This document shows, in pieces, positions 4,249-7,695 of a stretch of 64,000 nucleotides of DNA (its first letter is position 1; each line of letters begins with the position of its first letter). This DNA comes from Bacteroidota bacterium. GTDB lineage: Bacteria > Bacteroidota > Bacteroidia > Bacteroidales > JACABE01. Where the stretch lies: positions 1-64,000 of the forward strand of contig JACABE010000022.1 of assembly GCA_013377005.1 (NCBI GenBank), given 5' to 3'. The position numbers and the translations under genes are program-made. The notes below the pieces were generated by a model. That model was not told the origin of the DNA and did not search any database. It saw nothing but the letters and a program-made list of their open reading frames with translations.

Positions 4249-4476
4249 ATGGGAAAAGGCGATAAAAAAACAAAAAGAGGAAAGATTATCTTGGGTTCTT
4301 CGGGAATAAAACGTCCTAAGAACAAGAAGAAATCTATTTCAGTTGAAGTAGTAGCTCAAAAACCTATTAAAGAAGCAGCAGCTCCAAAACCTGCTAAAAA
4401 AGAAAAAGTAGAAACAGCTGAGGTAAAACCGGCTGAAAAGAAAACTACTGCGAAAAAAACACCAACTGTAGAATAA
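4249..4476 (+). CDS. 30S ribosomal protein THX (bTHX) with Lys/Ala-rich C-terminal tail
   Basis: N-terminus MGKGDKKTKRGKIILGSSGIKRPK matches the Thx family pattern. Confidence 0.8.
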   Translation: MGKGDKKTKRGKIILGSSGIKRPKNKKKSISVEVVAQKPIKEAAAPKPAKKEKVETAEVKPAEKKTTAKKTPTVE

Positions 4477-4479
4477 CAA

Positions 4480-4512
4480 AAAGAGAGGATTTTCAAAATC
4501 CTCTCTTTTTAT
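4480..4512 (+). terminator. Rho-independent terminator
   Basis: AAAGAGAGGATTTTCAAAATCCTCTCTTTTTATTT just after the bTHX stop. Confidence 0.85.
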
Positions 4513-4703
4513 TTATAATAATGCCTTCAGGCATTTAATGTTTATTGAAAAGATAGCAAGATGTTGTTAATATTAGTGCATTTAGGTGAAAAAGCCTTAT
4601 AGAAACAATATAATATCCCTAAAGGAATATAGGAATATAAGTTGTAAAATATTAAAGTGTTTTTTAATAAATATATCACTTATTCATTGGATCGACCTAA
4701 AAT

Positions 4704-4859
4704 AATTTACGCTGCAAAACAAGCATTTAAAATAGTGTGAGCCTTGCAGTAAGCAATACACGAGTAGCGAAGTAATTGAAATCAACAAAGACGAAAATGT
4801 TTCTTTCGCTACGGCTTGTATTACGAAGGGATTTTAAATGCGTAGTTTTGAAGTAAATT
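4704..4859. repeat. Imperfect long palindrome (arm 1 of nested element)
   Basis: 4704-4733 AATTTACGCTGCAAAACAAGCATTTAAAAT pairs with 4831-4859; 4749-4771 pairs with 4805-4830. Confidence 0.75.
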
Positions 4860-4866
4860 GTTTTCA

Positions 4867-4985
4867 GTCTTGAATTTTTGTAACTTTTTGTTCAAGCAAA
4901 AAGCTATTAAATCTAAAAATATAAGTTTTTTGATAGTGTTATTACGTTCTTTTGTCTTGAAACAAAAGAACCAAAAGTTCAAGAC
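4867..4985. repeat. Central inverted repeat of nested element (30-nt arms)
   Basis: GTCTTGAATTTTTGTAACTTTTTGTTCAAG (4867-4896) vs CTTGAAACAAAAGAACCAAAAGTTCAAGAC (4956-4985). Confidence 0.8.
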
Positions 4986-4992
4986 TCCGAAT

Positions 4993-5149
4993 AATTAATT
5001 TGCAAAACTACGGCTTTAAAAAGCCACGCAATCCAAGCCATTCCGAAACAAATAGATTTCCATTGTATATTCATTTATCCTTCGGAATTCGTGGATTGCT
5101 TGCAAAATACCCTCGCATTTTTTAAAGCCTTGTTTTGCTACAATTAATT
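4993..5149. repeat. Imperfect long palindrome (arm 2 of nested element)
   Basis: 4993-5023 AATTAATTTGCAAAACTACGGCTTTAAAAAG pairs with 5118-5149; GCAATCCAAGCCATTCCGAA (5028-5047) pairs with TTCGGAATTCGTGGATTGC (5081-5099). Confidence 0.8.
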
Positions 5150-5265
5150 ATTCAATGTCAGTGTTAATTCGAGGCTATTTTCTTTTATTTATGTAATTCC
5201 AAATTACTAAGTTTCAAATATACATTGTGTATTTTTACTTCTCAGTATAATTGCTTGTTCCTTTC

Positions 5266-5727
5266 TTAGTATCCTCTTTTCTTTCCGCTTACTTTTTCGA
5301 AAACAACCTTAAATAAAGCTACATTGGTAATGGCTGGAAGCGAATATTTAAAATCGCGTTGGGTGTATTTTTGCATAATCTTATTCATCCATATTGTTTT
5401 TTCGGGAATATCTTCAATAAACTCAACTTTTCCGTAAACAATCACACTTTTAAATTTCATACTATAGCTGCATGCAACTTCCACATCGTGATGATGCAAT
5501 TGATGGGCAGTGCTGAATACAATACATACATTGGGATTGGCTTTTAATATTTCCATTTTCTTGCCAACAGGAGCTGAGTGAAAGTACAACACATTGTCTT
5601 CGTATGCAAAATTGAAAGGCAGGTTGTAAGGCATCCCTTTTTCGTCAACCATACTCATATAGCAGGCTTCGCATTGATTGATTACTTCTTCTATTTCCGA
5701 TTTTTGGGTGATTATATTACTCTTCAT
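5266..5727 (-). CDS. Pyridoxamine 5'-phosphate oxidase-like FMN-binding protein (NimA-like family)
   Basis: CEACYMSMVDEKGMPYNLPFNFAYEDNVLYFHSAPVGKKMEILKANPNVCIVF pattern. Confidence 0.8.
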   Translation of the reverse strand: MKSNIITQKSEIEEVINQCEACYMSMVDEKGMPYNLPFNFAYEDNVLYFHSAPVGKKMEILKANPNVCIVFSTAHQLHHHDVEVACSYSMKFKSVIVYGKVEFIEDIPEKTIWMNKIMQKYTQRDFKYSLPAITNVALFKVVFEKVSGKKRGY

Positions 5728-6335: not shown

Positions 6336-6734
6336 TTGGATAAAATTTTAACATTCAAAGATCTGAAAACAAAAGAATTAATAACAAACTTTACTTTAGG
6401 AATAATAATTAATATAATAAGTTCTCTAATAATAGGAGCATTTACAGTAGAAAAATTTTTAATTACAGATATTCGTATAAATGGATTTATTTACTTAGGA
6501 TTTTTAATAATTCTTATAAGTTTAATTATTTATAAGGTAATACGAGTTGAAATTTTAAAAAACAAAATAAAACAAGAAATCATTAATAATAAAGAGATTT
6601 ACGAGAAAAATTACAGAAAAAGCCCAGTAATTAATAAAGAGCATGAAAAAGAATCTATGTTTTTGATTTTATCTGATGCTTATTGTTTTTTGACTGTAAA
6701 AAAACTAAAAAAATACATAAATGAATCTTATTGA
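6336..6734 (+). CDS. Hypothetical small membrane protein, IS passenger ORF (start uncertain)
   Basis: 132 aa with two predicted TM segments; no ATG near the 5' end; TTG start overlaps a TATCTTTG box at 6331-6338; 14-bp overlap with the transposase start. Confidence 0.5.
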   Translation: MDKILTFKDLKTKELITNFTLGIIINIISSLIIGAFTVEKFLITDIRINGFIYLGFLIILISLIIYKVIRVEILKNKIKQEIINNKEIYEKNYRKSPVINKEHEKESMFLILSDAYCFLTVKKLKKYINESY

Positions 6735-7695
6735 AATTTCAAATAAATACCCAACAGAATTAGAAGCAATAAAGCACTTTGAAAGTGTAAGATGTAATAA
6801 AACAATAACTTGTCCTTATTTTAAGTCAAAAAATATAGGCAGTAGAAATATAGATTACCATTATCATTGTAAAGATTGCCAAAAGTATTTTTCTGTATCC
6901 ACAGGAACAAAAATACATAACACAAGATTAGAGCTTAAAACATGGTTATATGTTTTTTCATTAATAACCGATGCAAAAAAGGATTATCAGCATTACAAAT
7001 ACAAAGGAACTTAAATATAAGTTATCCTACTGCATTATCAATGTGTCATAAAATTCGTGAATTAATGATGATTGAAAACAACAAAGTTGAATTATCAAAT
7101 ATTGTTGAAATGGATGAAACATTTGTAGGAGGTAAACCAAGAAAACAAGCCAATTATGAAGGATTAAAACAAAAAAGACAAATTGAATACGATTTAACAC
7201 TAAGACACCTAAAAGAAGAGGGTTTTAAAATAGAAAAAGGTAAAAAGAAAATGAAATCAGACATAGGAATAAAAAGAGGTAGAGGCTCAGAAAAGAAAAC
7301 ACCAGTTGTAGGTATGGTTTCAAGAGATGGCGAAGTAATTGCCCAAAGTAATGAAAAATCTAACTTACAATAACCTTAAAAATATGATAAATAAATACGT
7401 TGATAAAGATGAAAGTATTTTATTTACTGATGATTATAAAGGATATCGTAAAATTGATGAAATTATAGAATATGTAAAAATAGACCATCATAAAATGTAT
7501 TCTTACAAAGGTATTAATACAAATACGATTGAATCATTTTGGGCTATTGTTAAACGTCAAATAATAGGACAGCATCACCACGTTAGCGTAAAGCATTTAC
7601 CTAAATATGTTCCTGAAACTGTCTTTAAATTCAATAATCGTAATGATGATGATATGTTTGAGACTTTAGTTAAATTTAGTATGTTAACCAATTAA
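6721..7695 (+). pseudogene. IS1595-family (ISXO2-like) transposase in three frames (6721-7014, 6942-7373, 7339-7695)
   Basis: Zinc-ribbon CPYFKSK..HCKDCQKYFSVSTGT; DDE-type core VEMDETFVGGKPRK ... FTDDYKGY ... NTIESFWAIVKRQI continues through two frame changes (near 6975-6981 and near 7341-7345). Confidence 0.85.

Follow-up and report, generated by a model that had tools for sequence, protein, structure and literature searches.

Why does a gap between two convergent genes hold several hundred nucleotides of nested palindromes and no gene? Our analysis of the window, that is, the whole 64,000-nucleotide stretch of a Bacteroidales genome (contig JACABE010000022.1), revealed that the gap contains an inverted, tail-to-tail pair of non-coding interspersed repeat units, which belong to a class-wide family. 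The gap is bordered on the left by a gene for a Thx-type small ribosomal protein (4249-4476, plus strand; PF17070 at E 8e-6, below the curated cut-off) and on the right by a pyridoxamine 5'-phosphate oxidase-type gene (5266-5727, minus strand; PF12900, E 2.8e-18). An intrinsic-terminator-like hairpin of the upstream gene (4478-4510, plus strand) lies 180 nt before the first unit, outside the element. The Thx-type protein (75 aa) carries a Lys/Ala-rich C-terminal extension, which is also present in its relatives from two genomes of the same genus, G001 and G002, and its Pfam match covers residues 1-27 only.

The first-pass annotation had described two palindromes and a 30-nt inverted repeat at 4704-5149, and both are real. 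We found inverted repeats between the arms (4714-4732/5120-5138 and 4832-4850/5003-5021; 19 nt, 89%) as well as within each arm (4716-4733/4831-4848 and 5005-5022/5119-5136; 83%), and positions 4690-5160 folded as one RNA reach -149 kcal/mol compared to -84.9 +/- 5.1 kcal/mol for dinucleotide shuffles (z -12.7, 0/100). Folded singly, the arms give z-scores of -3.1 (A) and -7.8 (B). The extent had been drawn too narrowly, as the whole pair spans 4689-5164 and comprises two units of ~215 nt, A on the plus and B on the minus strand. Moreover, the 30-nt repeat is not an element between the arms but consists of the two unit tails and is enclosed by a 58-nt inverted repeat (4846-4903/4949-5006), and instead of the proposed cloverleaf-like hairpins each arm folds into a long hairpin, which bears a small side loop, and a pseudoknot. 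That no open reading frame explains the gap holds true, the only one being a 53-aa frame at 4821-4982. A decayed gene was rejected, since neither arm has a significant frame and the family is non-coding elsewhere; the locus thus turned out to be neither a decayed gene nor a single-copy sequence without homologues, the two outcomes named beforehand as counting against the annotation.

Across the genera examined, units are 176-223 nt long and consist of a long hairpin followed by a tail of ~40 nt, in which the loop of a second hairpin pairs back upstream to form an H-type pseudoknot. The long hairpin is closed by G[A/G]C...G[T/C]C, which is GAC/GTC in the window units. In unit A (4689-4908, plus strand), the hairpin (4694-4869) runs from GAC at 4694-4696 to the closing GTC at 4867-4869 and includes helices 1-6 of the covariation analysis, while helices 7 and 8 make up the tail (4870-4908), where TTGAA (4870-4874) pairs with TTCAA (4891-4895) and ACTTTTTG (4883-4890) with CAAAAAG (4897-4903). 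A spacer at 4909-4943, which is not conserved, separates the two tails. Unit B (4944-5164, minus strand) is full-length, inverted and of another subfamily, beginning with TGACATTGAATAATTAATTG; its hairpin occupies 4984-5159 (GAC 5159-5157, GTC 4986-4984) and its tail pseudoknot 4944-4983, including the TTGAAACAAAAGAACCAAAA motif (4957-4976 on the plus strand). This tail is also present in Chryseobacterium. A covariance model built from 37 units, all from genomes of the genus (R1), matches unit A over its full length (model positions 1-219) with 211.8 bits (E 4.5e-59) and unit B with 196.9 bits, both by construction since they are among its training sequences.

The same genome contains a second whole pair (contig C12:247306-247822) with a longer spacer and 78% overall identity to the window pair (81% for unit A, 92% for unit B), a single unit of a third subfamily on contig C13, and fragments. 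Genomes of the same genus carry tens of units, mostly single, and the element is therefore the unit rather than the pair; altogether, units occur singly, as inverted pairs and in arrays. R1 matched all five genomes of the family (at least 5 matches in G000, 38 in G001, 42 in G002, 7 in G003 and 12 in G004), where the counts include partial matches and opposite-strand matches of palindromes and are to be read as lower bounds of copy number. The first-pass annotation had linked the TTGAAACAAAAGAACCAAAA motif to intergenic DNA of Bacteroidetes, and this was borne out: exact copies of a 32-nt form of the tail that includes the motif occur in 32 genomic stretches of Bacteroidetes, most of them from Chryseobacterium and its relatives, and others from Riemerella, Cloacibacterium, Kaistella and one Saprospiraceae genome. 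R1, which was built without these stretches, matches most of those on which it was run over the full length of the model at ~40-80 bits. At E <= 1e-5, R1 detects the family in 110 of the 296 class genomes and in 75 of the 166 genera, and a model of Chryseobacterium units (R2) matches 140 of the 150 genomes of that genus at E <= 1e-15; these E-values are rough because the calibration was short. With regard to specificity, only units and one apparent unit fragment scored below E 1e-6 in 464 kb of window and Chryseobacterium DNA. Distant model hits, read by eye, mostly share 5' G[A/G]C[C/A]T and 3' G[T/C]CTTGA, and a leader of 15-25 nt upstream of the units is lineage-specific. Units were found on chromosomal contigs, and plasmid, phage and viral collections gave no match at the sensitivities used.

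An autonomous version was considered and rejected, as matches of odd length and truncated copies proved to be decayed or interrupted units rather than gene-bearing ones, and no autonomous relative or parent insertion sequence was met among the loci read. One 4.5-kb contig of G001 is flanked by two units and carries a DinD-like and a nuclease-like gene, both assigned by eye only, along with other repeats; there was no sign that the units form the ends of its content.

The structure is supported by compensatory change. The closing pair is compensated in distant families (GAC/GTC, GGC/GCC or GCC/GGC), and in the alignment of the 37 units of the window genus 96.7% of cells are paired and 27 pairs changed on both sides. 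The covariation score was 0.296 for the window genus, compared to 0.035-0.062 with slid partners, and 0.314 for Chryseobacterium units. In the hardest test, 30 copies of a single orthologous junction, it was still 0.264, with slid controls at 0.097 or less. Part of this covariation could stem from arm-to-arm template switching or gene conversion between copies. Support for the pseudoknot comes mainly from the pair of columns 196-214, which is paired in 37 of 37 units (UA 18, AU 16, CG 2, GU 1), because the other pseudoknot pairs hardly vary. Two of the pseudoknot pairs are broken in six of the 37 units. A joint change of TCTTGA and TCAAGA to TCTAGA and TCATGA in six units of G001 (L098, L100, L103, L106, L107 and L109) breaks two such pairs and leaves two self-complementary hexamers. 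Other variants include a Chryseobacterium copy (L256) with an inverted loop of the tail hairpin, TCTTGAAA in place of TTTCAAGA, and several G001 and G002 units (L110, L125, L126, L132 and L210:4094-4213) in which the short palindrome CCCGCACGTGCGGGA substitutes part of the unit hairpin and pairing is kept.

The folds also distinguish the strands. In three alignments, which partly overlap as two of them (A3 and A4) are both from Chryseobacterium, G-T cells exceed A-C cells by 46 to 10, 83 to 11 and 197 to 11, and the sense strand is the more stably folded one in 36 of 37, 25 of 27 and 26 of 30 units. The excess of G-U pairs over A-C mismatches on one strand means that this strand is the folded, selected form. 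Since G-T pairs are tolerated in single-stranded DNA too, the selected form is one defined single strand that may be either RNA or ssDNA, between which this test cannot separate.

Comparison of orthologous junctions showed that units are gained and lost. A presence/absence comparison at the window junction, as the first-pass annotation had suggested, found no units in G001, where the two genes are ~300 nt apart, and none in G002, where they are ~83 nt apart; judging from these sequences, gain in the window lineage would be the simplest reading, and loss is also possible. In Chryseobacterium, the junction between a fucosidase and a glucosidase gene is filled in ~37 genomes, cleanly empty in at least 13, with overlapping stop and start codons (TAATG), and decayed in several others, where the hairpin is gone and GACAT|AAGTC plus the tail are kept. 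Among filled copies, identity to the reference unit is 77-98%, and the flanking genes have 80-95%; in some copies the unit reaches 95-98% where the flanking genes have 82-86%, and whole unit arms have been exchanged between subfamilies, which together suggests that copies have been replaced by others, in addition to being under constraint. No target-site duplication was seen between filled and empty alleles at two junctions, where an additional 20-30 nt of flanking sequence makes the ends hard to place, and no recent insertion was identified among the loci examined.

Placement relative to genes differs among lineages. Of 22 Chryseobacterium loci, which a manual count reduces to ~15 independent junctions, 21 have the upstream gene in the same orientation as the unit, and units often lie ~20 nt past a stop codon and ~20 nt ahead of the next start. 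The window genus has a weak same-strand preference (16/25), and orientation is mixed among 19 loci of other genera. Tail-to-tail pairs as marks of convergent genes were considered and failed, as pairs are also found where the neighbouring genes are co-directional or divergent; that the window pair lies between convergent genes may thus be chance. Relative to replication, 21 of 23 units in one complete genome (G062) are co-oriented with the fork, with the origin taken from sampled GC skew, and dividing each of nine single-contig genomes into two arcs accounts for 77 of 85 unit orientations (64 expected; maximum of 72 in 500 shuffles). The use of dnaA as origin marker was wrong, fitting 58 of 85 in the reverse sense; on G062:C1, dnaA is at 334 kb and the sampled-GC-skew origin near 2.3 Mb, ~2 Mb away.

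Several insertion sequences were observed in the same genomes. An IS110/IS1111-type element (PF01548, PF02371) is inserted in the unit tail, directly behind TCAAG, and the same site is used by a shorter, ~150-nt derivative that lacks a transposase; one or the other occupies some nine units in G002 and a single one in G001 (L152:4768-6156 on the minus strand, L155:3128 onward, L157, L144-L150 and L156). By analogy with ISPa11, which uses REPs, it is a probable RNA-guided insertion sequence that takes the repeat as its target (PMC11187229). In the window itself, an IS1595 (ISXO2-like) transposase at 6721-7695 is split over overlapping frames, two of three with PF12762, and is probably a broken copy. 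Moreover, a Y1 transposase (164-aa frame) is present in five identically scoring copies (G000:C12:228398, C23:98163, C36:2877, C56:143 and C56:95692); flanking hairpins (CCCCGCCGC.../...GCGGCGGGG) of the two copies read suggest a recently active IS200-like element.

Taken together, we consider it probable, though by no means settled, that the units are a structured repeat which is spread in trans and which, as an RNA structure at the ends of transcripts and between cistrons, the host tolerates or has co-opted. Support for this mechanism comes from the multi-copy family, the compensated closing pairs and the covariation, and likewise from the strand bias, the gain and loss of units, their placement in Chryseobacterium and their orientation relative to the replication fork. 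For the enzyme and the function we infer the following: the unit would be non-autonomous, and an enzyme encoded elsewhere would recognise the unit in its folded, single-stranded form, either RNA or ssDNA of the lagging strand, and copy it into intergenic sites. Once in a transcript, the unit would form a structure at the 3' end of the mRNA or between cistrons that does no harm or is of use, similar to BIME, ERIC or BOX elements, and could persist because of this. In the window, transcripts of the two convergent genes, if they ran past the terminators, would each enter a unit of their own in sense orientation. The weak or mixed same-strand rule outside Chryseobacterium counts against placement at transcript ends and between cistrons, and no mobilising enzyme was identified.

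Purely selfish ssDNA, which folds on the lagging strand and is moved by an HUH transposase (Y1, IS200/IS605 or RAYT-type) with no RNA role, would also account for strand-specific folding and for the fact that 21 of 23 units point in the direction of the fork, which places the folded strand in the lagging-strand template. Y1 transposases are indeed present in all four genomes of the genus. However, a scan of eight Y1 loci of G000-G003 with their flanks for a RAYT-like partner gave no unit match and only chance-level tail matches, the six Y1 loci inspected are flanked by their own short hairpins, and numbers of Y1 genes (10, 5, 7 and 5) do not track those of units (at least 5, 38, 42 and 7). Since replication alone would also not lead one to expect that upstream genes in Chryseobacterium tend to share the strand of the unit, we regard this explanation as rather unlikely. 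Strong covariation, the pseudoknot and the class-wide spread, along with conservation that at some loci exceeds that of flanking coding sequence, would fit many paralogous genes for trans-acting small RNAs, functional and not mobile. Such a family is improbable given that copy number varies about tenfold within a genus, that only the lineage-specific leader and no conserved promoter-like block was recognised upstream, that units lie inside operons ~20 nt from both genes, and that inverted pairs, arrays, and truncated and empty alleles resemble a repeat.

Group IIC introns are placed in sense just past terminators, and at several Chryseobacterium loci units likewise follow terminators or stop codons directly in sense. 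A non-autonomous retroelement, whose RNA would be copied into DNA and integrated by a reverse transcriptase supplied in trans, is further suggested by the RNA-like fold and the conserved 3' pseudoknot, but a series of 5' truncations or a poly-A-type tail was not noticed, and truncated copies at the fucosidase/glucosidase junction have lost the hairpin rather than the 5' end, which makes this origin quite improbable. Finally, long imperfect palindromes, the unit arrays of Riemerella and Chryseobacterium, and the targeting of units by an IS110/IS1111 element, whose relatives target attC (PMC11187229), recall decayed double attC-like sites of integron cassettes or another array of site-specific recombination sites. 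We give this idea hardly any credence: it is largely refuted by the absence of cassettes from the arrays examined, whose spacers of tens to ~170 nt contain no coding gene, and unit orientations alternate in the Riemerella arrays. We retain the repeat spread in trans as our reading. A bolder version of it, possible but doubtful, would make the unit a previously undescribed, class-wide mobile non-coding RNA, that is, a pseudoknotted RNA (or ssDNA) of ~200 nt which serves as substrate of a dedicated enzyme and has been recruited many times as an intercistronic or 3'-end RNA module in Bacteroidetes.

We know of no recognised class-wide equivalent of REP/BIME, ERIC or BOX elements in Bacteroidetes. 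The family provides such a repeat, abundant and with covariation strong enough for reliable models, and it seems to be a widespread genome element that was overlooked. Its copies break draft assemblies, and as it moves over evolutionary time, copies at operon junctions could set the relative expression of their neighbours. This raises the questions of which enzyme spreads the repeat and whether the pseudoknot acts in mRNA. The filled, empty and decayed alleles of one Chryseobacterium junction represent a natural experiment. No catalogued RNA family matched: none of the 4227 Rfam families reached its gathering threshold on a unit in any of 34 loci of the class, and a search relaxed to E 1 gave only sub-threshold matches in the window and locus L054. 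A literature search found no name for the family, and a text search of 5.39 million papers for the tail sequence gave no match.

The Flavo-1 RNA motif (RF01705) is, like the present family, a computationally found structured motif of Bacteroidetes, and in F. psychrophilum it lies sense or antisense of transcribed regions indifferently (PMC9723704). It was found neither in four genomes of the genus, with control genomes likewise lacking a match, nor at gathering threshold in any related locus scanned. Small interspersed repeats of Bacteroidetes also include the BrickBuilt MITEs of Porphyromonas gingivalis and a Cardinium MITE (PMC5771137, PMC9769881), compared here by description only; that of Cardinium is linked to the inverted repeats of a parent insertion sequence, whereas no such parent was seen for our units. 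The first-pass annotation had left the choice between a non-autonomous MITE/REP-like pair and a structured RNA, and a multi-copy interspersed repeat and a covarying structure were both confirmed. A classic MITE is not supported, as no terminal inverted repeats were found, the ~40-nt 3' tail extending past the closing stem and the ends not being inverted copies, and as no target-site duplication was seen at the two junctions compared, where the ends are blurred.

REP/BIME elements are likewise interspersed, non-coding, palindromic and intergenic, with many copies, inverted pairs and arrays. Both are also targeted by an IS110-type element, IS621, ISPa11 and ISPpu10 having been described in REPs (PMC11187229 and its references). 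In contrast to the 20-40 bp palindromes of REPs, the units have 176-223 nt, a 3' pseudoknot and class-wide conservation, and no GTAG/CGTC tag was identified beside them; a CTAC(GAAG) 5' of the hairpin was seen in the window genus only and is not shared by the other genera. ERIC/IRU, Correia (CE/NEMIS) and pneumococcal BOX/RUP repeats share with the units a length of 100-200 bp, an intergenic location and tight folding when transcribed, and have been reported to affect expression of co-transcribed genes (PMC3049150). These repeats are described as MITE-like and restricted to narrow host groups, whereas the present family spans 75 genera with strand-specific covariation. The placement of units in Chryseobacterium is compatible with an ERIC/BOX-like effect on neighbouring genes, and overall the family is best read as a BIME/ERIC/BOX-like, genome-resident structured repeat.
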